From assembly GCA_030062745.1 (NCBI GenBank), contig CP099842.1, positions 2,108,001-2,172,000 on the forward strand: a stretch of 64,000 bases of DNA, read 5' to 3'. The notes beneath the pieces are model-generated. The model had not been told where the DNA came from. It saw nothing but the letters and a program-made list of their open reading frames with translations, and did not search any database. Shown one piece after another: positions 21,618 to 45,205 of this stretch (positions are counted from its first letter, which is position 1; each line of letters begins with the position of its first letter). A program made the translations under genes and the position numbers. Origin of the DNA: Capitulum mitella (Eukaryota > Arthropoda > Thecostraca > Pollicipedomorpha > Pollicipedidae).

Positions 21618-23109
21618 AGGGCAGCGGTCGGTGGCGCCTCCGTCGTCGCCGGCGGCCGCAGCACCACTGGCCCAAGAGCGGGCCGGCCGCCGGGCCGGTG
21701 AGAACAGCGACCGCCTCGCGATCGATGCGTGCAACAGACGCGGCGCGGGCCCGACCGCGGGCCGGCGGGCGCCCGCGCGCCGTCCCCCACCGACGGCGCC
21801 GTCCCCTCAGGCCGGCGGGCGTCCCCTCCCGGCGCTCTTCCCTCCGCCGCTCGTCACGATCCGCTCTACCTCCGAGCGCTCTTCCTCTGCCCGTTATCTG
21901 CTCTGCAGAAACTGGTGCGCCTTCTCATTGCAGCTGCCCGTAATTCCGTCCCGGAACTCGTGCCCTCTCGCTCTCTTTCTCTGAGCTGCCCCTGCTCTGC
22001 CTCTGAGCTCATCACTATGCGGCTGCCATGGTGCCCGACTGACCGAAATAATGATGTTACCACCAATGCACAACAGTAATGAGGAAGTGTGCTGGATAAA
22101 ATGTCCCTGGCAATTTATATTGCCCCTGATTACATCGAATACCATATTTGCTTTTTGTTTCCGCCACGCTCCACTCACCGGCTGTTCCACTCGCCTGCAT
22201 GTCGCGAACCGTCCCGAGTCCTCCCAGCACAGACGAGGTTACATACACGGAATAGGCCCGTGTATGCGTATGCATGACGGTCCGGCCGTCACTGTCACCG
22301 TCACAGACAGACCGTCCGTCAGTCACCGTCACTGTCACAGGTAGACTGTCCGTCAGCCACCGACACAAGGAACCTACGGTGAACCCGCCACAGGTACACA
22401 CCAGTCCCCCCAGCGTAGCGCGGACCGCCTCACCAGACAAGCGGCTGCTCAGGGCGCCGACCACTCGCGGCTCGCCGCCCCGGCGGTGGACCGTCGACGC
22501 GCTCCGCCGAGTTCGACTGGCGGCCGCCTGGCCCGCCCACGCCGCCTCGCGCCCGGCCCTCCGCACCGCGCCTGAAACTGGGAAAGGGAAAGTTCGCCTG
22601 AACTTTTGCCTGAACTTTCGCCGTGCGCCGGCCGGCACGTCGGGAGCACTCGGCGGTCGACGGCAGCCTGGCGCACGCCTGCCGCCCACCGGACGCCTGC
22701 TGGCACGTTGATTGGGCGCCCGATCCGTTTCCGATTGGAAAACGCGACGCTCGCGACAAACAGCCCTAGCAGCGTATGCACTCAAAAGATCAGGAGACGC
22801 AGACAAGGATTTTGAGGCGGCCTATCCATGCACTGTTATGCAGCCATAGGCCTAAGTTGTCGGGGGGGGGGGGGGTCGGTGCCTTTGTTCTGAACTCCCC
22901 TCCCCTGCTCCCATGAATAGACCAGCGCGGCAGCCTGCGCGGCAGCCGCAACGGTTAATCAGTCCACTTGTGGCGATCATGGTGGGCCGGCACGGAGCGG
23001 GCGGCGTGCGTTCCGCTGTCACGCGAACCTCTCCACCTGCCGGCAGCGTTCGCAGCGCCATTTACCCCCTCCCCCCGGCGCGGCGCCGACGTGACATTCT
23101 GGCGACCGG
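21618..23109. other. no recognised gene; GC-rich with a poly-G run
   Basis: A GC-rich island spans about 21618-21850, and a second spans about 22430-22720. TCACCGTCACTGTCACAG-type repeats occur at 22280-22370 and a poly-G run at about 22861-22875. No credible gene. Confidence 0.45.
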
Positions 23110-23306
23110 CGGAGGGTCGCCAGATGGTGACTGACAGACGGTCAGCCTGTGACGGTGGCGATGACGGACGGTCAGCCTGTGACGATGACGGCGACTGACG
23201 AAGGTGACGCTGTCCGAGGGAAGGTCATTCTGTGACGGTGGCTGGCGGACGGCCACTCTGTGACGATGGCTGACGAACGGTCAGTTTGAGTCGGTGACCG
23301 ACGAAC
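23110..23306. repeat. GACGGTCAGCCTGTGACGG-type tandem repeat
   Basis: Irregular copies of about 30 bases carry GACGGTCAGCCTGTGACG and GGTGGCTGGCGGACGG. The same motif resumes at 27403 (ACGAACGGTCAGTCCGTGAC), directly after the hAT-like element. The array was therefore split by that insertion. The left copy of the target duplication, CGACGAAC, is at 23299-23306. Confidence 0.75.
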
Positions 23307-24473
23307 CAGGGCCTATTTTAACATGTTAACTGGGGGGGGCAAATGCCCCCCCAGTCGGACACTTTGCCCCCCCAGTCAAGATCCTTTGCCCATGCAAAGA
23401 AAAAAACAGCCAGGTGTACTAGCGTGCCCAGGAAGGTATTCCATAAACCGCTGCGCTCGCAAAGCAGCATCTTATCAACGAAGGATGTGTTGAATCACTG
23501 AGTAATGTGGGAGCACACTTAGAAGCATGACCTTATAATACGTATTGCAGGCACACCTAGTGACCGCTGGCGAGCGTGTTTCGTAATTAGTACGTCGGCA
23601 CTCGATGCCGCGATTGTCTGGTGGGCGGCCAAGGCGTTTCATTGCATGGTAAGCACGTTAAAAATGATGATAACCATCTTTGATGTGTTCAAGCGCAAGG
23701 AAACTGAAGGGTGAGCTGGTGCGCAGGGCGGTTTCGCTATGATGAGATAAGGTTTATATGAATGCGGTAACAGTCCAGCAGTGCTGTAGTCATCACCAAT
23801 CATCCTGATCCGAAAACCCTGCTAAAATCCCAGTACCTGATTGGTAGAACTTCATTGAACTAGGCGGTTAAACCCGAGTTTTACGCGAGGAAAACGGAAA
23901 ATTAATCAGTCATATATTAAAACCGTCAATCTTGCTGCTCCTAGTGCATGGGTTTGAGCATCCCATGAGCATGCTTCATCTGCTTAACGAACGTGGCATG
24001 GCCCAGACTGCAGATAATGACGAATGTTGATTATGTCTCACTGAGGCGGGACTAAGGCGAATATTTCAATCTGAGGTGACTTTTTTATTTTGGGGCCGAT
24101 AACCTGGAAATGGAGAAGTTTGTTCTGCCTGTGTTGGGACAGCTTTTACACTTCTGCGCAGTGTTGAAAAACATATGGCCAAAATTCGGTGAGAAAATGT
24201 ATTTTGGGGATAGATTAGATCAACAGAAACTATCCCGAAGAGGCAACCTACTGTCTCATTTAGGGAATAATCGAAGCTGCCGCAACATCTCGCCAATATT
24301 CTGGCCATCGTTTGCAGACTGTGACTTATATATTTAAAGTACCACGCCTTGCCATGCCACGGTAACTCACGGTGCCGGTCTGGCAATTTCCCGCGCGTTC
24401 TTAGACGTCAGGATATTAAAGGACCACCTGCGTCAATGCAGAAAGTACCTTTTATAACGGAAGTCTGTGCTAC

Positions 24474-26690
24474 TATGGCTGCACCACGAGAAAAAGCCGA
24501 ATTTTGGTTGACCGGGGCTCAGAACTGCCATCGCGGGGACAAATGCTGCAGCAATATTTTCAGTCCCACCGTGTGGATAGGCTTACCCAGAGGTAGGTCA
24601 AAACACAGATCGTCCGCGAAATGATGAAGGTGTGGAACAAACCCCGTATTCTCACTGCACCGGAGCGGAACGTGATGAAGCTCAACAGGAAGCTTGACCA
24701 GTACCAAAGGCAAATTCTGGAGGTTCACGCCGGCAATTGACAAGAAGAATGGATTTAGGGACAACCTTAACAATCTTTTTGACCTTGCCCTTGTCGGCAC
24801 CATTCAGATCATCAAAACCAAGAGGATAAAGACATTCTCTAGGCCCAAACGGAGCCAGGTCGCCGAGGCGTCATGGTGGTATTCGATAAGTTCCCTTCTG
24901 AGAAGGAGGAGTGAGCTCTTCAACGACAACAGTAGGCCGAAGTTTTAAAGGGCCCGCCGTAAGATTACACAGCAGACCGAGCATGAGGCAACTGCCCAAC
25001 TGGGATACTCGCCTACCGACAACACACAACTGACAGATCAGGATGACCCGCAGCCCTTGGCCATGCCTTCGAAGCGGCCCTGCAGGAGAGCCAAGAACAT
25101 CGCCACTCTTGGTCAGGCAGCAGCCCTCGATCGGACCAAGCTCAATGATCGCTCTGGAATTCATTTCCTAACGGCGACGGCTTCGGTCCTCGGCCACGAC
25201 TCCTCTGAACTGGCGATCACAGAAGCTCGGGCAGGCGCGCTCGTAGACCGCAGAGGAAAGCCATTACGGACGAAATCTAGCATTCTTTCTTCGCGTCACC
25301 CAACCTGGTGGTCCACTGGGACGGCAAACTGTTACTGACGATGGAAACGAAAAGGTGGATCGACTCTGTCATTGTAACCGGTCCAAGAAGTGCCGCCAAG
25401 CTCTTCGGTGTTTGGAAGTTGCAAGTAGAGCCGGAGCAACGCCAGCCGACGTTGTCGCGCTTTGTCTGGAACACTGGGAGGTCTCGGACAACGTCGTCGG
25501 CATGAGCTTCGACACCACCTCCAGCAATACTGGACAAGTTGTGGGAGCAAACACGCTTCTTCAGCAGAAGTTTCAGTGACGGCCTATTCACTTTGCTTGT
25601 CGTCATCATATCGTCGAACTGGTGACAGAGGCGGCTTTCTCCACGCACTTCGGTCCGTCCTCGGGACCGGGATCTCCTTGTTCAAGAGCTTCAAGAAGAG
25701 ATGGAGGCTCATTGATTGGAACAAGTTTGAACCTATGGTGTATGAAGACCTGGAGCCAGCAGTGGCCGAGACGTTTTTCTCTTCCAATGATCGTTTCGTT
25801 GCCTTCTGCCGTGAGAAGCTCGCCGAAATCCAGCCTAGCGATGATTATCGTTGGTTTTTTGAGGTCTCGATTATCCCCTTTGCTCAAGAGCCTCCACGGG
25901 GAATCAAGTTCCCCAGCCAGGTGCTCTCCAACGTGCCAGATAGATGGTTCCATCGCGCCAGATGGATGGGTCGCATAATCTGCGGGATCAAGATCTTCTT
26001 GCTTTGCCATCAGTTCTGCGTGACTCTCAGTGGATTGGGAGCACTCAAGCGCTTCGACTCTTTCATGGTTGTTTTGCACGTCAGTGCATGGTTCTGCTCT
26101 TCATCGGCGGTCAGCGCTTCCGTGCACGACCTGGCCGTTCTGCAAAGCCTGATGTGAATGCTGAAATTTCGAAGGAGATCTCCAAGGAGTTTGCCGATCA
26201 CCTATTATCTATTATGACATTATAGTCGACATATGATTTATTATAACAATCACCTATTACGGTGCCCCAGCGAAGAACTGGCTGGTGTGTCGTTCTTCGA
26301 CGAGAGTGTGCAGTGTGAGATGAAGACGAGGATGATCGCGGCACTCCAGGAACAGGGATCGGAGAGTCCTCCCAGCGAGCGCAAGTGGATCTCGCAGAAA
26401 AGGAGGTTCTCGTCCCAGGCAGATCATCGTCGACTTCATTACCGCAAAGTCGGTGGGCAACCTGAAAGCCTACGGCAGCAACATGGACTTCCTTGCCGCC
26501 GATACCGCTGATTGGGAGACAGCACCTGGTTTCACGAACGCTAAGGAAGTCCTGTGCGGGATCGCGGTAGTTAGCGACTTCGCCGAACGAGCTGTGGCTC
26601 TTATCGAAGTATACAACAAGGCACTGACGAAGGATGAAGGGAAAAAACAGTACCTGCTGCAGTCGTCGAATAGCATCGTCGCCAGAACTC
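24474..26690 (+). pseudogene. transposase-like gene of the hAT-like element, copy 1
   Basis: The likely start is ATG at 24474 (MAAPREKAEFWL). Similarity continues in pieces through three frames. In order these are: a NLFDLAL region near 24770; a VVHWDGKLLL segment near 25310; VVALCLEHWEVSDNVVGMSFDTTSSNTG-type sequence near 25460-25545; ACRHHIVELV near 25600; LFKSFKKRW near 25680; HRARWMGRI near 25955; and a C-terminal DFAERAVALI / KKQYLLQ region to about 26670. I recall this pattern from an anonymous protein family common in arthropod genomes. The DTTSSNTG and CRHH blocks resemble the first-Asp and CxxH regions of RNase H-like transposases; that is inference. A TGA near 25577 lies between the two motifs, and a frameshift follows before LFKSFKKRW. 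Confidence 0.8.
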
Positions 26691-27175
26691 CGAGACCACT
26701 AAGAGGACTGAAGTATCATTCCCACCTAAGCCACACTGCTGCCGACAGGGCCAGTGACCTATGACCTGAGACAGAATGCGAAGTGTCTTTCGATCCAGTG
26801 TGTCAAAAGGAGTACTATGATGTGCATTTTATGCATATCGTGCGCATGGTTTAAAAAACTGAAGCACAAAACACGTTTGGGGGCATTTCAGACACATCTC
26901 TCCCTGAGCGAATCTCCCAGGGATCACAAGGCCATGGAGAATGAGTTCTTGCTGGGGATAAATGAAATGGTGTTCTTTAAATTTAATGGGCTCGGAATGC
27001 ACAAAAGCCGGCGCGAATTTCATCGAAATAAAATAAAATCCAGCACAAACGACATAGTCTTCGTGTGAAAGTGCTTAAGAGTGCTGGACCAAGGTCATGT
27101 TTTGCACACATGATTTCCTCCAAAAGACATATCAGTTAATGACAGGGCGCTGTGGAAGTGTTCATTGTAATTCGC

Positions 27176-27178
<3 letters not shown>

Positions 27179-27210
<32 letters not shown>

Positions 27211-27255
27211 TTTCTTAGGAAAGCATTTATATATATATATATATCCTTTCCGTAG

Positions 27256-27289
<34 letters not shown>
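27179..27289. repeat. interrupted (TA)n inside the transposon
   Basis: Three TA tracts are separated by CCTTTCTTAGGAAAGC and CCTTTCCGTAGG, which are near-palindromic. The same layout recurs, longer, in the other transposon copy, so the spacers belong to the element. Confidence 0.9.
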
Positions 27290-27291
<2 letters not shown>

Positions 27292-27408
27292 CGTGGACAA
27301 AATTCAATAAGGAGAACACAAATGCCAGGGGGGTGGTGTCAGCCAACGCGTCTCGTTCGCAGAATTGCCCCGCAGTCATTTTTCCTTAAAATAGGCCCTG
27401 CGACGAAC

Positions 27409-28891
27409 GGTCAGTCCGTGACTGTGACAGTCACCGACAGGCGGACATACACGGAGCTATTCCGCGAATGTAACCACAGCACTGGGCAGTAGCATAACCA
27501 GAGGGGTAAGAGGTGCCAATGAACGTTCGGTTATGATCGGATGGTTCCAAAAATTGGCTAGTAGCTGAAATTACTTGTTTCAAAGACAAAACGCATTTCG
27601 GAATTAAAAACAGGTGTATTTTTCTTTCAACTACCCAACGTGAGTTACATGCTAGAATCAATTTCCCAATGTGCGCAACCAAATGGTAAAAGTACCAAGC
27701 CCAAGTATGTCAGCCTCAATTCCCCTTATAAAAATCCTGGTTACTCTACTGGCACTGGATGCATGTAAACGTTGTACTTCGTCGTTCCATGAAAACCTAC
27801 GTTTATGCCATCAACCAGAGTAAGGGCAACATCACTTACTTCCACTTTTTCGGGGTACGAATTGCTCTCGCAATGCCAGCGTTCCCATAACGGAACAAAT
27901 TTACCTCTGATCAAAACAGGGTTTTCATTTCGAAATAAAAGTTCCGTATGCCATATTCAACTTAAAAGAGAAAAGTGTTTTTCGGTTTCTTGGAAATGCA
28001 TGCAACGTTCTTGCTGCGAATTCCAATTTATCTCGAGCTCGGAAGATGTCGGTTTAACTTATTATGAAGGTCGCAATGACCACTTTTTAAGAATCATGCA
28101 TATGATTATGCATCTATTAAAAGACTTCAAGTGTAAAATAAATACCATCTAATTGTTTATTTCGGCACAACGCCTAGTCCGTGCAGGAAACAAAACATGG
28201 TCACAAATGAGGAAAATGACCCCAAAAATGCTTAGCTCCCTTCCATGCACTTGACGGAAAGACATTGGTGATTACATGTTGCATGTTGACATGCCAAAAA
28301 CTATGAGTTTCTTTTGCTGCACATTTCATTTTTAAGACACAAAAAAAAACATTTATCGGATTCAGATCACGACTGGGAGGCTCAGATGCACGCTGGAGGG
28401 CCGAAGTCCGTCTACAAGTACACTAAACAGCACCCCTGAGTGTCCGGCGAAGCATCCGGAGAGAATGAAGATATCTGAACAAGCCACGAGCGTGGAACAA
28501 ATTTGACATTTCTCACAAAAGTGAAGACGCTGATCGTTTTAAGACGTAACATAATCTTGAAAAACCTTATTTCTGGGATCTTAGGACAAAAACCTATATC
28601 TGGGATCTAGGAAACACTTCAGGTGACATGTTTCCTAACATTATAAGACCAGACTGTAAGCCTTGCTTCCACAGGAATTCATGGATGATGAGATTTTACA
28701 ATAATATCAGAGTAAGGATTATTCGGGAGGACATCCGGTTTTAACGACGCGTTTTATTACAATGGTCACGAAGTACTAATGCATCGTGCCAAATGCAACA
28801 CTGGGGTTTACTTGTTTCGTCTTTTTGACTAAAGGAAACCGATCGTGGGACAATGCGATCCTCAGGCCCACGTCCCTAATTCTTTTCCCAC
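27409..28891. other. no recognised gene
   Basis: AT-leaning sequence. The first 40 bases continue the GACGGTCAG-type repeat broken by the transposon. A 115-codon frame at 27805-28152 has no recognisable domain. Nothing else is supported. Confidence 0.45.
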
Positions 28892-29257
28892 CTATAAAGT
28901 AGTCGCAGGATTGCAGTTATCATGTGCCACACTGGACCAACTTTCTCTCAGTTCTGATTTCACCACAGGGAACAATGCCCTACGCAAATCAGTTTGCTGC
29001 TGTTTGAACTTTGCAAACTTTTGGCAGCCTGACAAGAGCCGTTTGGATCCTTGCTGGTGTCCGTCGGCCGATGAATTTGACGAGGATTGGTCATTCCAAG
29101 AGGAATTGAAATACAGTGCGATACTGAGATACAATCCATGCTTGCAGAGCTGCAATGGATAATCGTTAAAGCTTCTCAGTTTTTCCTTGAAAATGCCACC
29201 AGTTTTTGTTCCAGTTTGAGGCTTTTGAAACCGTCCCAGATTCGATGCCTTTGACAT
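28892..29257 (-). CDS. small open frame, unrecognised, weak
   Basis: A 121-residue frame starts at ATG 29257 (MSKASNLGRFQKPQTGTK) in sequence of average composition. It has a Ser/Asn/Gln-rich middle and no signal peptide or known motif. The composition is protein-like, but no splice or promoter evidence supports it. It may be chance. Confidence 0.2.
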   Translation of the reverse strand: MSKASNLGRFQKPQTGTKTGGIFKEKLRSFNDYPLQLCKHGLYLSIALYFNSSWNDQSSSNSSADGHQQGSKRLLSGCQKFAKFKQQQTDLRRALFPVVKSELRESWSSVAHDNCNPATTL

Positions 29258-29532
29258 TACGCTGGCGTTTGTCAAAATGACGCTCCATCGCGGGTGACTC
29301 ACAGGTGAACAATGGCAGACAGCGGGCCTCGGACGCACCAGCCGACCAGCCAGAATCGACGACACGGCCAGATCGTCGTGTCCGGGACGGAATTTAATCA
29401 AGATCCATACTGCGGAGGGGGTACAATTCAGTTACAAGGCAGCCGAAGGGATGTTCATAAGTTTAGGCGAGTTTATATCCACCAAATACATAAATGCACC
29501 AAAAGCCTCAACCAAAAGTACTCACTGCTGAT

Positions 29533-29560
29533 GCTGATATATGATATGATATGATATGAT
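29533..29560. repeat. (ATATG)n microsatellite
   Basis: A pentanucleotide tract of about five units. Confidence 0.85.
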
Positions 29561-29600
29561 ATCCTCAACGGATTTCAAAAGGCACTGAAAAAACAGCGTC

Positions 29601-30102
29601 TTAACCCCTATTCCCGGAGGGCTAGAGATATGGCCGATTCCCTGCAGGGGGTGGATTCGCCCCCCCCGAATCTCGAAGACTACACGTCTGATTTCATCGC
29701 AACAAACAGCAATCGATTTGCCATGACGTAAACTACATTTTATAGCTATTTTTGGACTTACAGCTATATTGTTATAACTTTGTTGTTTACGGACCTATTT
29801 TAATGAAACTCGCATGAATCGAGAAATGATAGATGAGACTTTTACCACTCGTTCGCACATTTGAAATTTCGAGAAAATTCATAGGCGTTCGCAGGGTTTC
29901 GTAAGTAGGATTACTTTTTCAAAAACTGAATTAACAAGAAAATTAAAACACTTTTAGCTTTTGCTGATCATTTTATGCTGAAGAAGTATAAATCGTATAA
30001 CAATATTTGTATAATGTTAGCAAAGATGGTGCCAGGGACATGAAAAAGGGGAACTGTCATGGTGACACGTTCTTCAAGGCAACTTACGATCTTGCACCTT
30101 AA
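29601..30102 (+). mobile_element. TTAA-bounded foldback module A
   Basis: The module starts TTAACCCCTATTCCCGGAGG and ends TTAA at 30099-30102. Its whole length matches module A' (30749-31315) in inverted orientation, from TTAA to TTAA. TTAA boundaries with a CCC start are typical of piggyBac-type elements. It has no coding capacity. An extra G/C block (CCCCCCCCGAATC) follows the left end. Confidence 0.75.
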
Positions 30103-30752
30103 CCCTATTCCCGGCAGGGGGGAGGAATCCGCCCCCCCTCGGGTTTTTTGCTTGCCAATTCCAGGCTTTTTAACGCAGCTTCACGAAACTTGGTGACTTT
30201 TCCTAGCTATTCCTTCTACGCGCCGTGACAAAATTTCGAAATTCCATTTTGCTCAGTGGCGGAGCCAGGCAACGTTTTTGGGAGGCACCTCAGATCATTT
30301 TTGGCCATGTTGAGGGTAAAAGAAAAATGTCTGCCAAAAACAGAGTTTTTAAGATAGAACTTAAAACTTTATATGAATGTATAGCTAAATAGTTTGGGCA
30401 ATGTGCATACATAATTTTGTTTATCTGAGGTCACTTTACAAGGTCAGGTCAAGGTCAAAAGTCAAAATTTGTTTTTTCGCAGTAATTTCGGCACCGTTTT
30501 TTCAAATGCCAAACCCAGAATATATGTGACGTAGAAGGGTGCCCTCTACTTGTGTACCAAGTTTCAGCTTGATATCAGGTCGGGTCACGGAGCTATGACC
30601 TAAAATGTCAGTGCGCGTACCCTATATCGCAAAAGCCAAAAAATGATTTTTTTGGAATAGAGTGGATTCAATCAATTAAAAACGTTTACAGATAATATTG
30701 AATGCACAAGACATCATTCCAGGTGACCCCAAGGTCACTGGAGGTCATTTAA
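30099..30752 (+). mobile_element. TTAA-bounded foldback module B with AGGTCA cluster
   Basis: The module starts TTAACCCTATTCCCGGCAGG and ends at TTAA 30749-30752. It matches module B' (31312-31956) in inverted orientation. It contains AAGGTCAGGTCAAGGTCAAA near 30440-30465, and AAGGTCACTGGAGGTCATTT and further half-sites near 30730-30770. AGGTCA is the nuclear-receptor half-site. No protein is encoded. Confidence 0.75.
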
Positions 30753-31315
30753 GGTCAGAGGTCACAAGTTGATCTGAAGAACGTGTGACCATGACAGTTC
30801 CCCCTTTTTATGTCTCTGGCACCGCCTATGCTGACATTATACAAACATGGCAATGCGATTTGTACTTCTTTAGTATAACATGACTAGCAGAAGCTAAAAA
30901 AGTGTTTTGGCCTCTTTTGTTCATTCCGTTATTAGAAAACTAATCCCCCTATTTTTGAAACCCTGTGAACGCCCATGAATTTTCTCAAAATTTCAAATTT
31001 GCATACCCATGGTAAAAGCCCTATCCATAATCTCTCGATTCATGCCAGTTTCATCGAAATCGGTCCATAAACAACGGAGTTATAAGAAATTAAAAAGTAT
31101 CCCCCATTTTGACATTTTTGCCCCCCTGTATCCACAAATTTTAAAATTTTGAAAACTTCTTTTTATAAAAATGTAGTTCACGTCACGGCAAATCGATTGC
31201 CGTTTGCTGCGATGAAATCGGATAAGTAGTTCTCGAGATCTCAGGGGGGGGGGCCGAATTCGCCCCCCCTGCCGGGAATCGGCCATACCGTCTAGCCCTC
31301 CGGGAATAGGGTTAA
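30749..31315 (-). mobile_element. TTAA-bounded foldback module A' (inverted A)
   Basis: This is an inverted, diverged copy of 29601-30102. It shares the block around GAACGTGTGACCATGACAGT and ends ...CTCCGGGAATAGGGTTAA. It lies between the two B modules, so the A and B arms are interleaved, not nested. Confidence 0.75.
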
Positions 31316-31956
31316 ATGGCCTTCAGTGACCTTAGCGTCACTGGAATGATCTTGTGTGTGTTTCATATTATTTGAGAACGTCTCCAACCATTTGAATCCA
31401 CCTTGTTTCTAAAATTCCATTTTACGGCTGTTGTAATGTAGGGTGCGCGCACTGACATTTTAGGTCATAGCTCAGTGACCCAACCCGATGTCAAGCCGAA
31501 ACGAAGTACACAAGTACAAGGCAACCTTCTCCGTCACATATATTCCGGGTTTGGCATTCGAAAAAATAGCACCAAAACCTTTACATGAAATTAAATTTTG
31601 ACTTGACCTTGACCTGACTTTGTGCAGAGACCTCAGACGAACAAAATTGCACGTGTATGTTTCCCGACTAGTTACTTATACACCCATGTAAAGTTTTAAC
31701 TTCTATCTTAAAAACGCTACTTTTGGCAGACATTTTCCTTTTACCCTCAACAGGGCCAAAAAATGGCGTGAGTGCCTCCCCAAAAGGTTGCCTCGCTCCG
31801 CCCCTGAGCGAAATAGAATTAAGAAATTTTGTAACAATACGTAAAAATAAAAGCCAAGAAAAGCCACCAAGTTTCGTGAAGCCGCATCAAAAAACCTGGA
31901 ATTGGCAGAAAAACCGAGGAGGCTGATTCAATCCCCCATGCCTGGAATAGGGTTAA
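31312..31956 (-). mobile_element. TTAA-bounded foldback module B' (inverted B)
   Basis: This is an inverted, diverged copy of 30099-30752. It begins directly after the TTAA of A' and ends CCTGGAATAGGGTTAA. It keeps the half-site cluster as TTGACTTGACCTTGACCTGA near 31597-31616. A CGAAATTC/GAATTTCG-rich segment and a GCTCCGCCCCTGAGC remnant lie inside. Confidence 0.75.
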
Positions 31957-33123
31957 CGAAATGCCGGTACTCTGTTGACATTTCGAATTTGAAAAAGAAC
32001 ACCCAAAAAAGCGCACAATAAATATATTACCTGATCATGTTGTCGAATTCACCAGTCTAGCCATTATGTCTAAACACGAGGTAAGCGGCCCTTCCTGAGT
32101 ATCCAGTCTATAAGAGAGCCCTCACGCCCATGTGCGCAGCAATCCCATCCGTCGCACAAAAACGCTTTGAAATGTTTCCCATGAAGCAGGATATGCATCT
32201 TTGTACCAGAGTTTGATGTCGCGAGATAAACCCTCACATAAAGCGAGATAAACCCTCACATACCTTTCGCATGATAGAAACACCGAACGTTCAGCCCACA
32301 CAGGGCGAGGCAGACGTCCGCCGTCAACACTGAAAGTACACGGTACAACCCGCCGATGGGTAAAAATTCATCCCTAGCGACGCGTTTCTAGAACCCATGA
32401 TATTTCCCCAGTATGAAAGACGTCTTGTGGACCGTCCGCAGCGTAGGAGTTGGTTCCCAGCGCGGCTCGCAGCCACCACGGTGAAAGTACAGCAGACACC
32501 AGGCGCGCCCAATAAGTTCGCCTCCCTCTACATGACATGCATGCGACGCGAGAACGACCTTCAGACCATCCGACGAACCGCGCGATCAAAGCGCATCGCC
32601 AATGGGCAGACCGCACACGGCGCCGGCGGCTCCTGGCAACCACGTGCATACAGGGCCCGGCCTGGCGACAGCGCGCGCCACGGTCAATGAATGCAGACAC
32701 CACACACATGGCAGCGGGCGGCGCCGGTCAGGTCGGCGCGGAGCGGCGTGCCGTGACGCCGACCGTCACGTCACGCGCTCTCTTCCCGCCGCGGCGGGGT
32801 CGCAGGCGCGACTTGTTGCAGAGTGAATCCGTCGCGGTGGTCGTGGCGAGCGGCAGCTAGCGTCCCTCCAGAGCCGACCGGCGGCCACGCGGCGTCTGGA
32901 GCCGGCGCCCGCCGCGTGACGCCACTTTCACGCGCCCTGACGTCACGCGCGGTGAGGACTAACGGTCGCGAGCGTCTCTCGGGGCGGGACGGTGCTCCGG
33001 TTGGCGCGCCCTGCCGGCCGCAGGCGCCTTCGCCCCGCTTCCCGGCGCCGGGCAGCGGCCCAGGCGGCGCCGGGCCGGGCCGCATCCCGACGGCCCCGCC
33101 GACCGACTTCAGCGCGGCGGCCG
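31957..33123. other. intergenic, becoming CpG-rich towards the transporter gene
   Basis: A short direct duplication (GCGAGATAAACCCTCACAT) occurs at 32220-32262. From about 32600 the DNA is GC-rich and includes the 3' flank of SLC38A9. No convincing polyadenylation signal for that gene (TTTATT on plus) was found close to its stop. Confidence 0.5.
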
Positions 33124-34999
33124 TCAGTCGGTCTTGACGACGAACTGCAGCACCAGGTTGACGACGCCGAGCACGATCAGCGCCGAGTGCAGCACCGCGG
33201 CCGGCCAGCGCAGCCTCCGGCGCCGGTAGGTGCCCACCAGGTACGTCACGCACGGGAACGTGAAGATCCAGGCCATGCCGCAGAACGCGCCCGAGAAGCG
33301 CAGCAGCTGGCCGATGTGCGGGTAGAAGATGGCGACGGCCACGCAGGCGACGACCAGCGCCGTGTTGAGCAGCAGCACGCGGCCCGGTCCCGGGTACGTG
33401 GTGCTGTAGATGAACGTCATCAGCTGGGCCCGGATCATGAAGCCGAGAAGCGGGAACACGGTGCACATCTGGAAGAAGAGGAAGAGCCGAGCGCCGATCG
33501 ACATCGGGTCCGTGCCGAGGAAGTTGTCCAGGAAGTTGTCCTGGATGCAGGACTTGGCGAACGGCCACGCCATGAAGAACAGCAGGCCGATGTAGAGGTA
33601 CGTGATGAAGACCAGGAAGTACGCTATGAAGAGGTCGCGCACGTTGTTCTCCTGGTGCTGGTTGCTCTCCATGATGCGGCAGATGCAGTTGTGGATGAAC
33701 ATGGCCAGCGACAGCGTCCCCATCGCCACGGGGAAGTTGACCCGGAACAGCCGGACGAAGTCCACGGCTGCGACATCGGAGAAGTTGACGTGGATGCCGA
33801 ACTGGGCCGATTTGGTCGTCACGAAGATGACCATGTACAGCACCGAGATCGTGCCCATGCCGGTGAACTTGGTGAAGAAGGTGGGGCTTTTGATGTTCAG
33901 CAGCGGGTACAGCAGGAGGATGAGGAACAGCGGGGTGGTCTGCGCGTTCCACATTTTGTCGTACATGCTCTCTTCGCCTCCGACCGCGACGGGCACCTCG
34001 GCGACCTGATGGACCACGTCCTCCGGGCAGAAGGCACCGTAGATCACCGTCGCGTTCACGTCGTACTTGCTGAAGTTACCGATCGCCAGGTCGTAGAAAA
34101 AGTCCACCGTCCTGTACAGAAAGTTGGTCATGAGCACCCAGTACACCAACATGGCTCCCGTCAGCACGGCCACCGAGAACAGGATGCCGAAGTATTCCCA
34201 GTACTTGGACAGCACGTCGCGCATGATGTTCTGGAAGTCGTGCGTGGGCGGCGGGATGCGGAGCAGCTTCTGCATGGTCAGCACGCGGTACGCGGTGAAC
34301 ACGCACACCACGGCCATCGCGACGAACGTGAGGATCGACGAAACGAAGCCGGACTGCTCCACCAGCCACGGCATCGACAGGATGCTGGTGCCCATCATCG
34401 TGTTCCAGATGGCGAACACGGTGACGATGGAGGGGTTCCTCGTCTCCTCGCCGGGGCGCGGCGCGCGCGCGAACGGGATGAAGAACTCGGCCGGGATCAG
34501 GTGGTCCGGGATGGTGAAGTGCGGCGGCTCCCAGGCCGCCTCGTCCGTCTCGCTGCCAGTCTCCGAGTCGCGGCGCGCCTGGCGGTCGCCCATGATCTTG
34601 CGGCTCATCACCTTGCGGATGTAGTTGAACCGGTTGAAGTTGGCCACCTCGCAGTCGCTGGCCTCGGCGCCCGAGTCGTGGCGGTAGCGGTGCGTGCCCG
34701 GCACCTGGTGGTAGTGGTACGGCCGGCGCGAGCGCTCGCCGTCCGACTCGCTGGTGGCGCCGCCTCGCGACGTGCTCCGCGCGCCGCCTGGCCGCGCGAG
34801 CGCCGCGTCCGACTCGCTGGCGCGCTTCTTGCGGGACGGGCGCGCGCCGGCCGGCGGCCGCCGTCCCCTCGGCGTCCGAGAGGAGGCCGCGTTCCGGCCG
34901 CGGCGGCCGGCGCACCGGCTCCAGGTCAGAGCCGGTCTTGCCGCTGGGAGGCTTCAGCAGCGGCGTGCGCTCCGTCGGCCGCCTGCCGCGTGACGTCAT
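33124..34999 (-). CDS. SLC38A9: SLC38A9-like lysosomal amino-acid transporter/sensor
   Basis: SLC38A9 is an 11-helix lysosomal transporter that signals luminal arginine to Rag GTPases and mTORC1. Here the TM1 region has IWNTMMGTSILSMPW. Later come GAMLVYWVLMTNFLY, MFIHNCI, QENNVRDLFIAYFLVFITYLYIG and CIQDNFLDNF, which together identify the family. About 11 hydrophobic segments can be drawn. The cytosolic tail has NRFNYIRKVM and FTIPDHLIPAEFF, matching the human Rag-binding region in position. The chosen start is ATG 34999 (MTSRGRRPTERTPLLKP), which also has an acidic-dileucine-like ERTPLL. A one-base frame discrepancy lies at the GGGG run (34865-34868). With it, the product is about 625 residues; the human protein is 561. 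The region from about 34800 to the stop at 33124 is one open frame without introns, whereas vertebrate SLC38A9 has many exons. Confidence 0.92.
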
Positions 35000-35230
35000 G
35001 GCGAGCAGCGCCGGCCGACGCCCGAGAACAAAGGGCGGCACCCAGCCGCGGGAACACGCGTCACCACCGCCGAATCACGCGCGCGCACTGGCGACACAAG
35101 GAGGCCGCTTCGCAGACCCGGCCGCCGCGAAGTCGCTGTCGACTGCAGTTTTGTTGCGGGCGACGGCGTGCGCAGCCGGCGTCCGTCGGCCGACTAAGGC
35201 GCCAAGGTCACGGCGTGCGACGTGTAGAGG
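35000..35230 (-). promoter_or_regulatory. CpG-rich 5' flank of the SLC38A9-like gene
   Basis: GC-rich sequence continues for about 200 bases upstream of the chosen ATG and then drops to average composition. A CpG-island promoter is inferred from composition and position only. No TATA box or initiator was identified. Confidence 0.35.
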
Positions 35231-36480
35231 TCCGCCCGGCACCAGGTCGAAACCCGCCCGTCACCAGGGACACATGCACGGGACCTAAAAGCGAGAGAAT
35301 TGAGAAGTGTTAATTTTGTGGAAGAGACGGATGAATGGGCAGGTTGTAAGAGACGATCACGGCCAACACCAGGAAGCGGAGAGAGTGTCACAGCAACATG
35401 AAGCCTGCAATCGTATCGCGACGATCCGAACAAAACATGCGTCAAGTTCTTGTTGCTGACTTGTTCTTACCTTGTACCGATAAGGCGCACATATTCACTT
35501 CTCTGGGGTGGCCTTGGAAATGTTTGTGCCGTGACGAAGGGAAAGGAAGGCAAAGGGCTACATACAAAAACAGTGTGCTTTAGTAGGATTAGAGGAAGCC
35601 ATTCTGGTTCTGCAAGGTAAAACGCTGTGTAAGTACTTGGTGGCGGTGCAGTCTGCGTTTTGTACATGTTAGCCATTTGAAATGCCAGAATCGCAGCGAA
35701 AGCTGTACACACAAATGCAAACTAACGTCGATTTTATCGCAAAACGTAGCTTCTTAAAATAACTTGGAGGCAGAAATGGCAGTTCTAAAGAAGGTCGAAG
35801 AACGTCATCCGATGCTCAGTTTCGTTCACGTACCGCCCAGCAAGCTGAGCAGGCGAGGCAACTGTTGCATATACGCCGAAAAAATATGTCAGCAGTTATC
35901 AGAACGCTATGAAACGAGCATTCGTGTTAATCTATGAAAAAAGAACACGCAGTTTGAATGCGCTATGGACGTCATATGGTATATTTTCTTCCCGTCCCGT
36001 TCCCGTCCCGTCTCCTTCTGAAGCGGCCGTTGGACATGTTTCCACATCCTGTTTACGCAACAAAACAATGCAACCTGGTGTTACACACAGCCTTTGCTTC
36101 GTACCGAGTCATTCATGAGTGTTCGGTGTGCTGGCAAGACGATGCGAAATGCCGCAAGTCACTTTCACATGTCGACATGTCCAGGCCAGTCTGGCGCCAG
36201 TCTGGCGGCCAGTCTGGCACGTTAAAAAGTTGGTCTGTGAGCGCGGAGCTCGCACATCAAGTCCACTCGGACACGTCGGCAGTCGCTCCTATCTCTCCGG
36301 TTGATTTCACCGCCAGCTCTGAGCTCTCCAACTCCCTGAAGGTCCGCCTTGGCTTCACTCCACGCCACGGCCGACACCTGCATCACACTTCTACGGCCAC
36401 CAGCAACCGATCACCAATGCACCATTTCCAAAAAGCATTGCGAAATAGCCGGGACGCTGGCGCAGCAGCGGCTTGAGATT
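35231..36480. other. no recognised gene
   Basis: Average composition. A TCCCGTCCCG-type run occurs at 35992-36012, and a GCCAGTCTGGC motif repeats three times at 36184-36219. No supported coding region. Confidence 0.45.
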
Positions 36481-37160
36481 GGCAGATGGTAGGCTGCGGT
36501 GCCCCGCCGTGGCGCCGTTTCAGCCGCCGACCCCGCCGGCGCCGCGCGGCCCGGCGCTCGGCAACGCGGCCAGACCAGACCGCGGCCAGACCAGACCACG
36601 GCCAGACCAGATCGACCAGAGCCCGGCGGCGGCGGCCCGGAGAGGCGGCCGGCTCTGAGTCACGGTCCAGCGGCCGGACGTGCCGGTCTGCCCGTCTGGA
36701 TCGTGACCGGCCGAACCGCCGGCACGCCCCGGGGGCGCCGCCGCCGATCGCGCGGACACCGGCCCGTGCCGAAGGAACGGCCGGCGCTGTGTCGCTGGTC
36801 ACGGCCATGGAAGCCTCTGCTGTCGGCGGCCCTGGGTCTCGGGACCGCTCCTCTGTCGTTTCCCGTGTCCCGGGACCTATCCCGCTGTCCCGGGACCTGT
36901 TCCGCCGTTCCGGGACGCGGCCGCGGGCCCGCCGGGGCCGTCTGTTTACAGAACGGCACCGCAGGCCGGCGCTGGACCGTACTGGGAATCCGGGTCATGG
37001 CGGTCCCCGGCCGGCCGGCGGTCACCGGGCACGCTCCGGGCAGGGAGTTCGTCCCGCGCCGAGCTCCGGCCGTTCAGGCCGAGCGGCGGCCAGCAGCCGC
37101 CCGGGCACCTACCCGGGCGAAACGTCCGCTCTCTCACGGCGCGGCGCACAAGTGACGAAA
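36481..37160. other. GC-rich island with two small tandem repeats
   Basis: CGGCCAGACCAGACC occurs about three times at 36567-36612, and a GTCCCGGGACCT-type repeat lies at 36868-36918. Overlapping low-complexity frames exist on both strands. No gene is called. Confidence 0.5.
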
Positions 37161-39000
37161 TCCGTGCCAGTCATCTTCAGCGTACTGGTGCAGGATTCGT
37201 GGCGGTTTACTTCGAGTAATTAACGACAAATCGTCTGCGAGTTGACGTAGATTACGAGTCCTGTTCGTTTGTTTTCTTTTTCTCCGCGACACCGGCCGCC
37301 GCGGACGATGACGAGTCAGCTGGCGGCGGAGGAACACTAGTGATCCCAGCGCGACGAGGCCAAAATGGCGCGAAACAGCTGCACTTTCAGCCCAGCGCGT
37401 GCTTGTGCGGAAATTTCCGCACCGAAAACGCTTCGTAAAGAATCAAGATGACCTCATCGGGTTCATGGAGCCGCAAGGACAAGGAAGCCCTTAAGTGCGT
37501 AGTAATCCCTGGTCCCTAAATCGCTATCAGAACGATCCTAAAAACGCGCGCACCGCAGCCGAATGTCGCGCAGTCGGTTCTCTGCGAGCACCGACTGCTG
37601 CATTTGAATGCCACGCGCTCGCTGATCGATAAGGACCCAGTAGTCTGCGCTTCTCGGCCTGGTCACGGCTGGTTTTCCGCCGCAGCGGCCACCGTTCCCG
37701 GTAACGGGGCTGTGACCGCATGCTTTATGCAGCAGATCCCAAAACGCTGCTTTGAACTAGGCACGTTCTCGCAGCAGACTTCCTGACGGTTTGCCGTCAG
37801 CATCGTGATAAACGACAGCAGGGCTGAACGACAGCCACACCGACAGTAGACTACAGGCAAGAGCCGGCAGGGGACCGACAAAACAGAGGTGCCAGTGTCA
37901 ATATCTTCACGAGTTCTTGCGTGGCAAGCTATGGCAGCCACGCCACATCCGCGCGTCCCCACGCCGTCTGGGCAAACCGCAGCTGCCTGGTGAGACTTAC
38001 CAGACCTGAGGATGCCAGAATGCTGTCGTCTGCCGCTGGCAGAGAAACTTAACTGAGACGCGTTCCACAGAACAGATGATTCGCCGCAGGTGTCATATTC
38101 CCTGAACCCTCCATACCCACTTAAAATTCAGGACGCTTGGCGGGCTTGTCTTGACTTGGCAGGCCCCGGGCGCGAAACTACCCATGGAAACCGGTAAAAA
38201 ATACTTCATACTTCCCACAATGCTGCGTCATGCTGCATCATGCTGTTCTTGGTAGACTTTTGTCCATATCACGCTGACTGAAAGCCTAGTCAATACGAGG
38301 CAGACGAGACAATGTTGGAGGCCTGATATTCACAAGCATCAAACCGATCCCGGGCTGCGAAAATTCGGAAACATGGTGCAAAACCTTGCTGTTCGAAAAC
38401 TTTTCTGGGCGCCACCTTCGTCCTGTTTTCGTTTCTGCAAGGTCCACTTGACAAAGCTGATCTTAAAAATTGGGTCTTATCACGGACCATCTATTCCTGT
38501 GGAGTCCCTGGACACAACACGGTCAGAAATGTTCTTAAGTTTCCATGTCAGCAGTGAAAGGCAATTTTACATCCATCTGTTTAGAGCCTTTGCGCATCGT
38601 CAAGCGGCGTTAATTAAGCAGTACGGATGAACTCATGAAAAAGAAATAAGCGATGAAAAACTGGCGAAAAACCTTCCCCATCGACAGGAAAAGTTGGCAA
38701 GATGCCATGACAATCGTGCTGGAGGTGGGCCAAACAGTCCTTTTTTGGCGCTTCCGTCAAAAAAGCACGCGGAAGTATCGCCGAATCTAAAAAGAGTACC
38801 GCCAGGAATGTTGTGTCCCAACAAGCCTGCATTCACGATGCAGTGAAAAACGTTCTGCAACGGTGCGTGACGGCACCGACGTAACACCGGCACAAAGACG
38901 CAGAAACGGAAGGCGAAAAAAACTACGGAGGCGCCAAGGACGACCAAGGAAAGGCTTGCCAACCTGTTTCTCAAACAGGCGCCTCGAGAGAGCACCGCGG
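37161..39000. other. no recognised gene
   Basis: Average composition with scattered short frames on both strands and no recognised domain. A small TGCTGCGTCATGCTGCATCATG duplication-like patch lies at about 38221-38242. Confidence 0.4.
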
Positions 39001-41000
39001 GCCATCGCTGGAGGATCCGGCGCCGGCCGCGCTCGAGGCCGACTCACGCTGGAGACGGCGGCGCGTCTCCTGAGGCGGCCGGCCTCGGCGCTCAGGTCAG
39101 CGACACCAGGCGCGTGGGCCGGCGACGCTAGCGCCGCGGCGGCGACGGCCGGCAGGCTGGCGTGCGAGCCGGCCGGCCGCCGCCGCCGCCGCCGCCGCCG
39201 CGGACCACTTCCTGCCGCCGAACAGCGACAGGGCGACGCGGCGCGGTGGAAGGCGTCCGGCCACGGCCGAGACGGGACCGCACCCTGACAGGGCCGGGAC
39301 TGGGCGGACGACACGGCGCCGCACCCCAGAGACAGGGCGGCGCTCCTCTCGCAGCAGGGGTCGACTGGGCGCCACCCGCCGCCCTCTAAGACACCGCCCA
39401 CCACCCGGCCGCGGGCAGAGAGAGGGGAGAGAGGCAGAACGCTGTCCAGTGGTCCATGAATCGGGTATCTGGCATAGCTCACGACATTTACCAAGTCACG
39501 TCGCACAACATACCAGGCTCGGAAACTGCGTAACAAGAACTGAAACGCACTTGAACACGAAATGTAAATACCTCGGAGACATGTAAAATATGACGAAATG
39601 TTTCAGCTATTGCTACGTACTGCGAACCGGAAGCAGTGTGCGAGACGTGAACTCCTGGGAGACGGGGCAGCTGCTCGCAATCAAGTTTCATCGAACTCCA
39701 AGGTGATCCAGTGTGACCTAATTGCGGTCTGACGGTCAACAGTGACTGCAATCACGCTATCTGCCGCGTTTTAAGCAGCCCAAGTAGCCAGCATGATATC
39801 GGGCCCATCGGGCTGTTATGATTGGCCGGCACCGATTTCGTTCCGCTATGGTTTTCACTCGCGCTGGAACGTTCACGAACGTTGTGTAACCACCGGCACC
39901 AGCAACGAAAGTAAGCGCAGGTCGGGTTTCTCCGGTGGACCAGGTGAGCAACCAGATCAGACCTGTTCGGCTGCGGCCGGCCAATCGTCACCCCCGCCAA
40001 CAGCGACCACCGGCACCGAACCGCACCGCGCCCAGCCGGCCGGTGACCAGGGGACCACAGTGTGCCCGAGCGGCCAATGACCAGGGGACCACCCTGCACC
40101 CAGCCGGGTGGTGAACAGGGAACCAGCCTGCGACCGGCCGACGTCTACAGACGGCCGGACGGCCCCGCCCGGGCGGCCAACAGCCGGACGACCTTGGGCG
40201 GGCCAGCGGCCGGCCCGACCTCGAGTGACCTTGACCGGCGGCCGCGCCTCAGTCAGCTGGCGCCGGTTCCGCGTCGCGGCCGCCGCGCCGGCGACCGAAC
40301 CCGGCCGTGTCAACATCGCGCCGCCGCCGGCCGCGCGCCGCTTTGTTAACCACCGCGCCGGAACCGTCTCGCGCCGAGTACCGGTGCGAGGAGCGGGCGG
40401 GGAGCGAGCGGGCGGCCCGGCGCGGCGCAGGTGGGAACGAGTCGGGCAGGCGTGGACGGGGTGGGACAGGGCCGTTTGGCCAGCAGCTGGCGCCGGCAGC
40501 ACGGCATGCGCTCCTTTGTGGCGTTGATATTAGAGGACGGGATGTCCGGGCACTCAGGCAAGATTCGGCTGGCTGTTGGGAAGACCGAGAACGCTGAGGG
40601 TACACGGAGGATGAACACCGTTTCTATGGCGGCCAAAGTGTGCACCGAAGACTAAATCATGGACACTAGGACGGGCCCAGACCACGTGCTAAAGAGGGTG
40701 GGGGCAAATCTCCATCCATGTGACGCAAACTACCCGAAAATGTTCATTTCCCAGGATTTCGCCATAAAAAACGTGTAAAAAAGGAATCAAGAAAGCATAC
40801 CTTTCCGACAGAAAAGGGGGCCAACAGACACGGCGGCCCCTCCTTTCCAACGACGTGGGGTCGCGGGCCCGATGTCCCCCCCCCTGGGATACGCCAGTGT
40901 ATGGGCATTGGTGAAAGCTGTAAGTGGCCAATTTTACGGACCTGCTTCTTACAGCACCGCCTCAGATGCCTGATGCTGACGTTGAGAAACGCCAAAATGG
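39001..41000. other. two GC-rich islands and a small minisatellite
   Basis: GC islands span about 39000-39420, with (CGC)n at 39178-39203, and about 39960-40500. A GACCAGGGGACCAC-type repeat of about 42 bases occurs roughly three times at 40040-40140. Around 40880-40905, CCCCCTGGGATACGCCAGTG resembles the right end of a hAT-like short element, but its left end was not found. No gene. Confidence 0.45.
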
Positions 41001-41120
41001 TTCTTAAACAGGGCCTATTTTAAGGAAAAATGACTGCGGGGGCAATTCTGCGAACAAGACGCATTGGTTGAGACCACCCCCCCCCCGGCATTTGTGTTCT
41101 CCTTATTGAATTTTGTCCAC

Positions 41121-41123
<3 letters not shown>

Positions 41124-41181
<58 letters not shown>

Positions 41182-41225
41182 TTAAGGAAAGGACATATAT
41201 ATATAGATGCTTTCCTAAGGAAGAC

Positions 41226-41296
<71 letters not shown>
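41124..41296. repeat. long interrupted (TA)n inside the transposon
   Basis: TA tracts at about 41124-41179, 41193-41206 and 41226-41296 are separated by TTCTTAAGGAAAGG and GCTTTCCTAAGGAAG. These spacers correspond to those of copy 1. The tracts are longer here, so the microsatellite changed length after or during transposition. Confidence 0.92.
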
Positions 41297-41300
<4 letters not shown>

Positions 41301-41789
41301 GGCGAATTACAATGAACACTTCCACAGCGCTCTGTCATTAACTGATATGTCTTTTGGAGGAAACCATGTGTGCGAAATATGGCCTTGGTCCAGCACTCTT
41401 AGCACTTTCACACGGAGACTGTATGTCGTTTGTGCTGGATTTTATTTTATTTCGATGAAATTCGCGCTGGCTTTTGTGCATTCCGAGCCCATTAAATTCA
41501 AAGGACACCATTTCATTTTTCCCCAGCAAGAATTCATTCTGCCTGGACTTGTGATCCCTGGGAGATTCGCTCAGGGATGTCTGAAATGCCCCCAAACGTG
41601 TTTTGTGCTTCAGTTTTTTAAAAGAAGCGCACGATATGCATAAAATGCACATCATAGTACTCCTTTTGACACACTGGATCGAAAGACACTTCACATTCTG
41701 TCTCAGGTCATTGGTCACTGGCCCTGTCGGCAGCAGTGTGGCTTAGGTGGGAATGACACTTCAGTCCTCTTAGTGGTCTCGGGGTTCTG

Positions 41790-44030
41790 GCGACGATGCT
41801 ATTCGACGACTTGCAGCAGGTACTGCTTTTGCTCTTCATCCTTCGTCAGTACCTTGTTGGATACTTGGATAAGAGTCACAGCTCGTTCGGCGAAGTCGCT
41901 AACTACCGCGATCCCGCACAGGACTTCCTTAGCGTTCGTGAAGCCAGGTGCTGTCTCCCAATCAGCGGGATTGGCGGCAAGGAAGTCCATGTTGATGCCG
42001 TAGGCTTTCAGGTTTCCCACCGACTTTGCGGCAATGAAGTCGACGATGATCTTCCTGGGACGAGAACCTCCTTTTCTGCGAGATCCACCTGCGCTCGCTG
42101 GGAGGACTCTCCGATCCCTGTTCCCGGAGTGCCGCGATCATCCTCGTCTTCATCTCACACGGCATGCCCTCGTCGAAGAACGACACACCAGCCAGTTCTT
42201 CGCTGGGGGCACCATAATAGGTGATTGTTATAATAAATCATATGTCGACTATAATGTCATAATGGATAATAGGTGATCGGCAAACTCCTTGGAGATCCCC
42301 TTCGAAATTTCAGCATTCACATCAGGCTTGGCAGAACGGCCAGGTCGTGCACGGAAGCGCTGACCGCCGATGAAGAACAGAACCATGCACTGACGTACAA
42401 AACAACCATGAAAGAGACGAAGCGCTTGAGTGCTCCCAATTCACTGAGAGTCACGGAGAACTGATGGCAAAGCCAGAAGATCTTGATCCCGCAGATTATG
42501 CGCCCCATCCATCTGGCGCGATGGAACCATCTATCTGACACGTTGGAGAGCATCCGGCTGGGGAACTTGATTCGCCGTGGAGGCTCTTGACCAAAGGGGA
42601 TAATCGAGACCTCAAAGAACCAACGATGATCATCGCTAGGCTGGATTTCGGCGAGCTTCTCACGGCAGAAGGCGACGAAACGATCATTGGAAGGGAAAAA
42701 CTCATACAACATAGTCTCGGCCACTGCTGGCTCCAGGTCTTCATACACCATAGGTTCAAACTTGTTCCAATCAATGAGTCTCCATCTCTTCTTAAAGCTC
42801 TTGAACAAGGAGATCGCGGTCCCGAGGACGGACCGAAGCGCGTGGAGAAAGCCGCCTCTGCCTCCAGTTCGACGATATGATGACGACAAGCAAAGTGAAT
42901 AGGCCGTCACTCAAGCTTCTGATGAAGAAGCGTGTTTGCTCCCACAACTTGTCCGGTATTGCTGGAGGTGGTGTCGAAGCTCATGCCGACGACGTTGTCC
43001 GAAACCTCCCAGTCTTCCAGACAAAGCGCGACAACGTCGGCTGGCGTTGCTCCGGCTCTACTTGCAACTTCCAAACACCGAAGAGCTTGGCGGCACTTCT
43101 TGGACCGGTTACAATGACAGAGTCGATCCACCTTTTCCTTTCCATCGTCAGTAACAGTTTGCCGTCCCAGTGGACCACCAGGTTGGGTGACACGGAGAAA
43201 GAATGCTAGATTTCGTCGGCAATGACTTTCCTCTGCGATCTACGTGCGCGCCTGCCCGAGCTTCTGTGATCGCCGGTTCAGAGGAGTCGTGGCCGAGGAC
43301 CGAAGCCGTCGCCGATAGGAAGTGAATTGCAGAGCGATCATTGAGCTTGGTCCGATCGAGGGCTGCTGCCTGACCAGGAGTGGCGATGTTTTTGGCTCTC
43401 CTGCAGGGCCGCTTCGAAGGCATGGCCAAGGGCTGCGGGTCATCCTGATCTGTCAATTATGTGTTGTCGGTACGCGAGTATTCCAGCTGGGCAGTTGCCT
43501 CATGCTCGGTCTGCTGTTTAATCTAACGGCGGGCCCTTTAAAGCTTCGGTCTACTGTTGTCGTTGAAGAGCTCGCTCCTCCTTCTCAGAAAGGAACTTAT
43601 CGAATACCACCATGACGCCTCGGCGACCTGGATCCCTTTGGGCCTAGAGAATGTCTTTATCCTCCTGGTTTTGATGATCTTAATGGTGACGACAAGGGCA
43701 AGATCAAAAAGATTGTTAAGGTTGTCCCTAAATCCATTCTTCTTGTCAATTTCCGGGCTGAACCTCCAGAATTTGCCTTTGGTACTGGTCAAGCTTCCTG
43801 TTGAGCTTCTTTATCACGTTCCGTTCCGATGCAGTGAGAATACGGGCTTTGTTCCACACCTTCATCATTTCGCGGACGATCTGTGTTTTGACCTACCTCT
43901 GGTAGGTCAAAACACAGTCTTTCAGTCCCACACGGTGGGACTGAAAATATTGCTGCAGCACTTCTCCCCGCGAAGGCAGTTCTGAGCACCGGTCAACCAA
44001 AATTCGTCTTTTTTCTCGTGGTGCAGCCAT
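41790..44030 (-). pseudogene. transposase-like gene of the hAT-like element, copy 2
   Basis: The gene starts at ATG 44030 and has the same order of motifs as copy 1, including FDTTSSNTG, CRHHIVELE and LFKSFKKRW. It shares with copy 1 the TGA codon just before the RPIHFACRHH segment and the frameshift before LFKSFKKRW. Relative to copy 1 it has a 9-base insertion giving ETMLYEF where copy 1 reads ETFF. It cannot encode a full-length protein without recoding. Confidence 0.8.
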
Positions 44031-45205
44031 AGTGGCACAGACTTCCGTTATGAAAGGTACTTTCTGCATTGACGCAGGTGGTCCTTAAATATCCTGACGT
44101 CTAAGAACGTGCGGGAAATTGCCAGACCGGCACCGTGGGTTGCCGTGGCATGGCAAGGCGTGGTACTTCAAATATATAAGTCACAGTCTGCAAACGATGG
44201 GCAGAATATTGGCGAGATGTTGCGGCAGCTTCGATTCTTCCCTAAATGAGACAGCAGGTTGCCTGTCCGGGATAGTTTCTGTTAATCTAATCTATTCCCA
44301 AAATACATTTTCTCACCGAATTTTGGCCATATGTTTTTCAACACTACGCAGAAGTGTAAAAGCTGTCCTAACACAGGCAGAACAAACTTCTCCATTTCCA
44401 GGTTATCGGCCCCAAAATAAAAAAGTCACCTCAGATTGAAATATTCGCCTTAGGCCCGCCTCAATGAGCTATCATCAACATTCGTCATTATCTGCAGTCT
44501 TGGCCATGCCATGTTCGTTAAGCAGATGAAGCATGCTCATGGGATGCTCAAACCCATGCACTAGGAGCAGCAAGATTGACGGTTTTAATACATGACTGAT
44601 TAATTTTCTGTTTTCCTCGCGTAAAACTCGGGTTTAACCGCCTAGTTCAATGAGGTTCTACCAATCAGGTACTGGGATTTTAGCAGGGTTTTCGGATCAG
44701 GATGATCGGTGATGACTACAGCACTGCTGGACTGTTACCGCATTCATATAAACCTTATCTCACCATAGCGAAACCGCCCTGCGCACCAGCTCGCCCTTCA
44801 GTTTTCTTGCGCTTGAACACATCAAAGATGGGTATCATCATTTTTAACGTGCTTACGATGCAATGAAACGCCTTGGCCGCCCACCAGACAATCGCGGCAT
44901 CGGGTGCCGGCGTACTGATTACGAAACACGCTCGCCAGCGGTCACTAGGTGTTCCTGCAATACGTATTATAAAGCGATGCTTCTAAGTGTGCTCCCACAT
45001 TACTCAGTGATTCAACACATCCTTCGTTGATAACATGCTGCCTTGCGAGCGCAGCGCTTTATGGAATACATTCCTGGGTACGCTAGTACACCTGGCTGTT
45101 TTTTTCCTTGCATGGGCAAAGGATCTTGACTGGGGGGGCAAAGTGCCCGACTGGGGGGGCATTTGCCCCCCCAGTTAACATGTTAAAATAGGCCCTGTTC
45201 TTAAA

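Follow-up and report, generated by a model that had tools for sequence, protein, structure and literature searches.

Two facing insertions of a hAT-like DNA transposon with a shared broken transposase gene in Capitulum mitella

How did two inverted, closely similar sequences come to lie 13.6 kb apart in one contig of Capitulum mitella, and what kind of enzyme put them there? The stretch in question (contig CP099842.1, positions 2,108,001 to 2,172,000; 64 kb, referred to below as the window and numbered from its first letter) harbors two copies of one element, facing each other, which an initial annotation had described as hAT-like. We consider it highly probable that both are independent insertions of a single cut-and-paste DNA transposon, that its transposase, highly diverged, either belongs to the hAT group or is sister to it, and that the last jumps were non-autonomous.

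Borders, terminal repeats and target duplications

Copy 1 occupies 23307..27400 on the plus strand (4094 bp) and copy 2 occupies 41009..45197 on the minus strand (4189 bp). Each is bounded by the same 15-bp terminal inverted repeat (TIR), CAGGGCCTATTTTAA, located at 23307..23321 (+, left end) and 27386..27400 (-, right end) in copy 1, and at 41009..41023 (+) and 45183..45197 (-) in copy 2, the latter two being the right and the left end, respectively, in the orientation of the element. Exact matches to CAGGGCCTATTTTAA in the 64 kb number four, all of them at the four element ends and pointing inward, against a chance expectation of ~1e-4 (2 x 64000 / 4^15). Allowing up to 3 mismatches adds one match, at 29789; the expected number of such loose matches is 1.46, and at least five are obtained in 3 of 100 shuffles. 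Loose matches are therefore near the chance level and only the exact ones are informative.

Copy 1 is flanked by a perfect 8-bp target site duplication (TSD), CGACGAAC/CGACGAAC, at 23299..23306 on its left and 27401..27408 on its right, and copy 2 by a different one, TTCTTAAA/TTCTTAAA, at 41001..41008 on the low-coordinate side and 45198..45205 on the high-coordinate side; 2 of the 2 insertions in the window thus carry a perfect 8-bp duplication. When the copies, each extended by 600 bp of flank at either end, are compared by blastn, one full-length match (601-4694 against 601-4789) has its edges at the element borders, no homology between the two loci is seen past the element ends, and the remaining matches between copies and flanks are AT-microsatellite (up to 116 bp) or at most 61 bp long. 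Identity between the copies is 95.6% over 4081 aligned bases (MAFFT), or 93.0% over 4201 columns with gaps (blastn). The 15-mer, the TSDs and the blastn limits agree to the base with the borders first proposed, 23307-27400 and 41009-45197, which stand uncorrected, and the end-to-end alignment of the two intervals confines the full match to them. The two differing perfect duplications, one per copy, were likewise found as the initial annotation had claimed and, together with homology that ends at the borders, support its view that each copy arrived separately.

Concerning internal sequence, AT-microsatellites lie near the right end of both copies (27179-27289 and 41124-41296). They are longer in copy 2, which accounts for most of the difference in length between the two elements, and in both copies they contain short palindromic CCTTTC/GGAAAG-like islands.

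Protein family

The coding strand follows the direction of copy 1; from 24475 to 26662, each of its three frames contains pieces of one protein. Aligned to a relative, P0001, the broken transposase gene extends over 24480..26718 (+) in copy 1 (P0001 residues 3-740; 13 frameshifts and 5 stops, with 373 identical codons among 708 aligned) and over 41754..44025 (-) in copy 2 (residues 3-738; 14 frameshifts, 5 stops, 381 of 708). Five open frames of the copies matched no Pfam family above cut-off.

Read-through of the gene pieces retrieved 59 relatives at E <= 0.001 (7996 candidates scored), the top one at E 4.1e-175 with 46% identity and 97% coverage, and a profile built from 34 relatives gave 599 matches at E <= 0.01 (7991 scored; 120 listed). 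Hosts among the listed relatives include Artemia, Homarus, Patella, Helobdella, Cyphomyrmex, Cotesia and Schizaphis. A tree that combines the two window copies with 34 relatives pairs the copies with each other and places them with P0001-P0003, both groups having a support of 1.0. A search for relatives in viral and prokaryote contigs gave 51 and 12 pattern matches, respectively, 0 of them confirmed.

The protein family had been called anonymous, and our searches bear this out. Hmmscan of 10 relatives returned no Pfam family above cut-off; 61 relatives gave 46 weak Pfam families, with no transposase family among the 25 listed; and no precomputed Pfam domain is attached to 58 of the 59 relatives from the read-through search or to 119 of the 120 listed from the profile search. 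Relative P0118 bears a precomputed PF27041.1, an accession not returned by the Pfam copy used here, so part of the family may already be covered by a more recent Pfam release. NCBIfam matches for 7 relatives were all far below cut-off, and PADLOC gave no match for 1 relative. A literature search, with Repbase and Dfam outside its reach, found no mention of five peptide motifs or of Cc8K15.2 and, judged by titles and the openings of abstracts, no account of the family, which may already be named elsewhere.

Structural comparison and hAT placement

Structural comparison supports a link to hAT. For both of the relatives modelled, the prediction is a Hermes-like RNase H fold that carries D, D and E together with a large helical insertion. 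VIA-align ranks Hermes first among the aligned chains for both models, over 347-361 residues, and Foldseek also places it at the top for the second model. The Hermes alignment is ~80-95 residues longer than that of ISCth4 (IS256 family) and more than 4 Z units ahead of it for both models, and it covers the region of PF05699, the C-terminal hAT dimerization domain. The hAT-like assignment of the initial annotation is thus favored by the predicted fold, with VIA-align on both models and Foldseek on the second.

Proposed key residues can be placed in copy 1 (all on the plus strand). The first catalytic Asp would be that of HWDGK (D294 of P0001; codon 25320..25322) and the second that of FDTTSSNTG (D359; 25511..25513). 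The CRHH motif (C388-H391; 25598..25609) is the candidate counterpart of the C/DxxH signature, an RW pair (R502, W503; 25960..25965) lies within the helical insertion, and the catalytic Glu would be that of AER (E694; 26585..26587). The order of motifs in Hermes, D, D, C/H motif, RW and E, is the same as in this family. According to PMC2533014, changes at D180, D248 and E572 of Hermes affect activity. The N-terminus of the family (24475-24700 in copy 1) is predicted as a helix bundle, and 1 of 61 relatives shows a weak Myb/SANT-like match (E 0.032); the N-terminus may thus be a DNA-binding domain other than a BED finger.

Several points weigh against this placement. The structures compared are predicted models of two relatives, not experimental ones, and VIA-align re-ranks only the top 1000 chains of Foldseek. 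For the first model Foldseek puts ISCth4 first (E 3.1e-03), with no Hermes among the 50 matches listed. A profile search of PDB sequences gave 0 matches at E <= 10, i.e. no sequence link to hAT, and a second one gave 2 unrelated weak matches (E 0.73 and 0.94); comparison of the conceptual protein family with solved hAT proteins by sequence profile found no hAT protein. PF05699 has no match at E <= 1 in 10 relatives and does not occur among the 25 listed of the 46 families from 61 relatives, and in these same sets there is no match to a BED finger. Finally, the sample consists of two insertions in one window, with no other genomic copy and no intact autonomous copy seen.

The alternative that survives best assigns the element to another C/DxxH superfamily with long duplications, either on the MuDR/IS256 side or P, so that the match to Hermes would reflect features common to the group. 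We regard it as improbable, given the lead of Hermes over ISCth4 in length and Z for both models, and given that no MULE or THAP family appears among the Pfam families listed (10 relatives; 25 of 46 families for 61 relatives). P superfamily transposases are characterized by an N-terminal THAP finger and a GTP-binding insertion; the insertion of both models contains no strand of at least 3 residues. P-element transposase chains are absent from the listed aligned structures, which excludes nothing.

As suggested by the models, the element would belong to a divergent lineage of transposons with the hAT fold, and a family that is nameless in the libraries searched gains a likely function, that of a hAT-type transposase. 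It is conceivable, though we lean away from so broad a claim, that this animal family in its entirety, hundreds of proteins whose named hosts are arthropods, a limpet and a leech, forms a deep, so far unrecognised lineage next to hAT, having catalytic and insertion domains of the Hermes type, a helical DNA-binding N-terminus that replaces the BED finger, CAGGG ends and 8-bp duplications, and represented in this genome by a non-autonomous line that went on jumping after the death of its enzyme gene.

Shared lesions and mode of movement

With P0001 as reference, 10 frameshifts agree in type and position between the copies, an eleventh occupies the same place and is scored differently, and 3 stops are common to both. 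With P0002, 10 shifts are shared (of 15 and 12) and 3 stops (of 4 and 5), and with P0003, 10 shifts (of 13 and 12) and 2 stops (of 5 and 3); lesions were counted from a frameshift-tolerant alignment to the relative, leaving out stops within inserted codons. As the lesions are mostly common to both copies, a point missing from the initial annotation, their common ancestor was already broken. Since its descendants nevertheless inserted cleanly at two sites, movement by a transposase encoded elsewhere in the genome is the simplest explanation. Both copies thus seem to stem from a source whose gene was already defective, and such an enzyme most likely moved them; as both carry the same broken gene, their last jumps would have been non-autonomous.

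This would not follow if the shared lesions were unreal, being due to mis-assembly, programmed frameshifts or introns, with a source still intact when it jumped. RNA processing is invisible to an alignment, and the closest reference is ~53-54% identical to the read-through residues; even so, we find this explanation very unlikely, since 10 shared shifts appear against each of the three references, with 2-3 shared stops, and 12 of the 13 shifts of copy 1 relative to P0001 remove 1-2 bases instead of inserting a stretch the size of an intron, while mis-assembly would need identical errors at two well-separated loci. Nor do the changes that followed the split of the copies show an excess at third positions: they are spread evenly, with 30, 29 and 26 on the three codon positions (666 of the 708 codons). 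The ratio of non-synonymous to synonymous change (pN/pS) is ~0.74 by a simple count of few changes (61 and 24). Divergence between the copies is similar in coding (4.5%) and non-coding sequence (3.9% and 4.8%).

In hAT excision a hairpin is formed on the flanking DNA. In the mechanism we propose for this element, an enzyme of the hAT fold, whose RNase H core carries D, D and E and is split by an all-helical insertion, would bind the element ends, excise the element and join it to target DNA cut with an 8-bp stagger; for the last jumps this enzyme would have come from an intact copy at another genomic locus. Two jumps after gene death predict that the genome holds, at some other site, a source that is intact or was so until recently, and the exact ends and duplications let repeat annotators seek further copies and short non-autonomous derivatives.

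Insertion sites

Degenerate repeats with GACGAACGGTCAG-like units, at 22276-22366 and 23216-23298, form the insertion target of copy 1. Because copy 1 landed in this degenerate local repeat, its joined flanks match a paralogous uninterrupted site (22291..22328, -), aligning gap-free across the junction with 22328-22291 over 38 bp at 86.8%. The joined flanks of copy 2 have no uninterrupted counterpart within the window, and no further element fragment was found in it (blastn, E <= 1e-3). The facing arrangement of the copies 13.6 kb apart and their mostly common lesions might suggest that a local duplication or inversion, without transposition, produced one copy out of the other. This has practically no chance of being correct, since homology stops at the TIRs (600 bp flank), the perfect duplications differ between the copies, and copy 1 has a related uninterrupted site.

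Subterminal motif

A subterminal G/C-run block at the left end of copy 1 (23329..23377) contains ACTGGGGGGGGCAAA and two direct copies of TGCCCCCCCAGTC, and a similar G/C-run motif is found ~24 bp inside its right end (27365-27377). The motif, approximately ACTG(G/C)GGGGCAA when read inward, lies about 23-37 bp from the tip at both ends, and within the 64 kb a regular expression for it matches the four element ends only. End-to-end similarity past the TIR was reached by 9 of 2000 mononucleotide shuffles for copy 2 and by 570 of 2000 for copy 1, i.e. not beyond chance in the latter. Subterminal repeats serve as binding sites in other hAT elements, and by analogy we would guess that this motif may be a second binding site for the transposase.

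Neighboring sequence

Between the copies lies a gene with a single open reading frame encoding an SLC38A9-like amino acid transporter (33124-34704, -; Aa_trans, E 5.1e-20). Its closest named match, 89% identical over 92%, is from Pollicipes pollicipes, a goose barnacle, which fits a barnacle host; two other matches show 81-83% over 100%. A 773-aa open frame runs antisense over it (32992-35313, +), has no Pfam match at E <= 0.01 and is possibly a by-product of GC-rich codon use. A complex tandem array with periods of 32-203 bp is present at 20967-21617.

Comparison with known systems

By sequence, the family is the same as that of 'Cc8K15.2-like protein' and other unnamed animal proteins (Homarus, Artemia, Patella, Cyphomyrmex, Helobdella, Cotesia, Schizaphis), a label that we take to denote likeness to a Cotesia protein. 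ISCth4 (IS256 family; PDB 6xgx, 6xg8, 6xgw) aligns over fewer residues, 264-270, and with a lower VIA-align Z than Hermes. Kolobok and Dada do not fit the 8-bp duplications found here, their own being TTAA (4 bp) and 6-7 bp, respectively, as given in PMC9587614 and PMC3706591.

For hAT elements in general, PMC3942097 gives sizes of 2.5-5 kb, TIRs of 10-25 bp and 8-bp duplications. The present element, with 4.1-4.2 kb, 15 bp and 8 bp, agrees in all three with hAT (Ac, Buster and Tip groups), and differs in that its transposase shows no PF05699 match among the Pfam families listed. Hermes itself (PDB 6dwz, 6dww, 4d1q, 2bw3, 8sjd, 8edg) is 9-12% identical to the family, without a sequence-profile link; where Hermes has a BED finger, none is seen here among the Pfam families listed and the N-terminal region of ~110 residues is helical. 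What the two have in common is the match in fold, as predicted by the models, the order of the proposed motifs and the 8-bp duplications.
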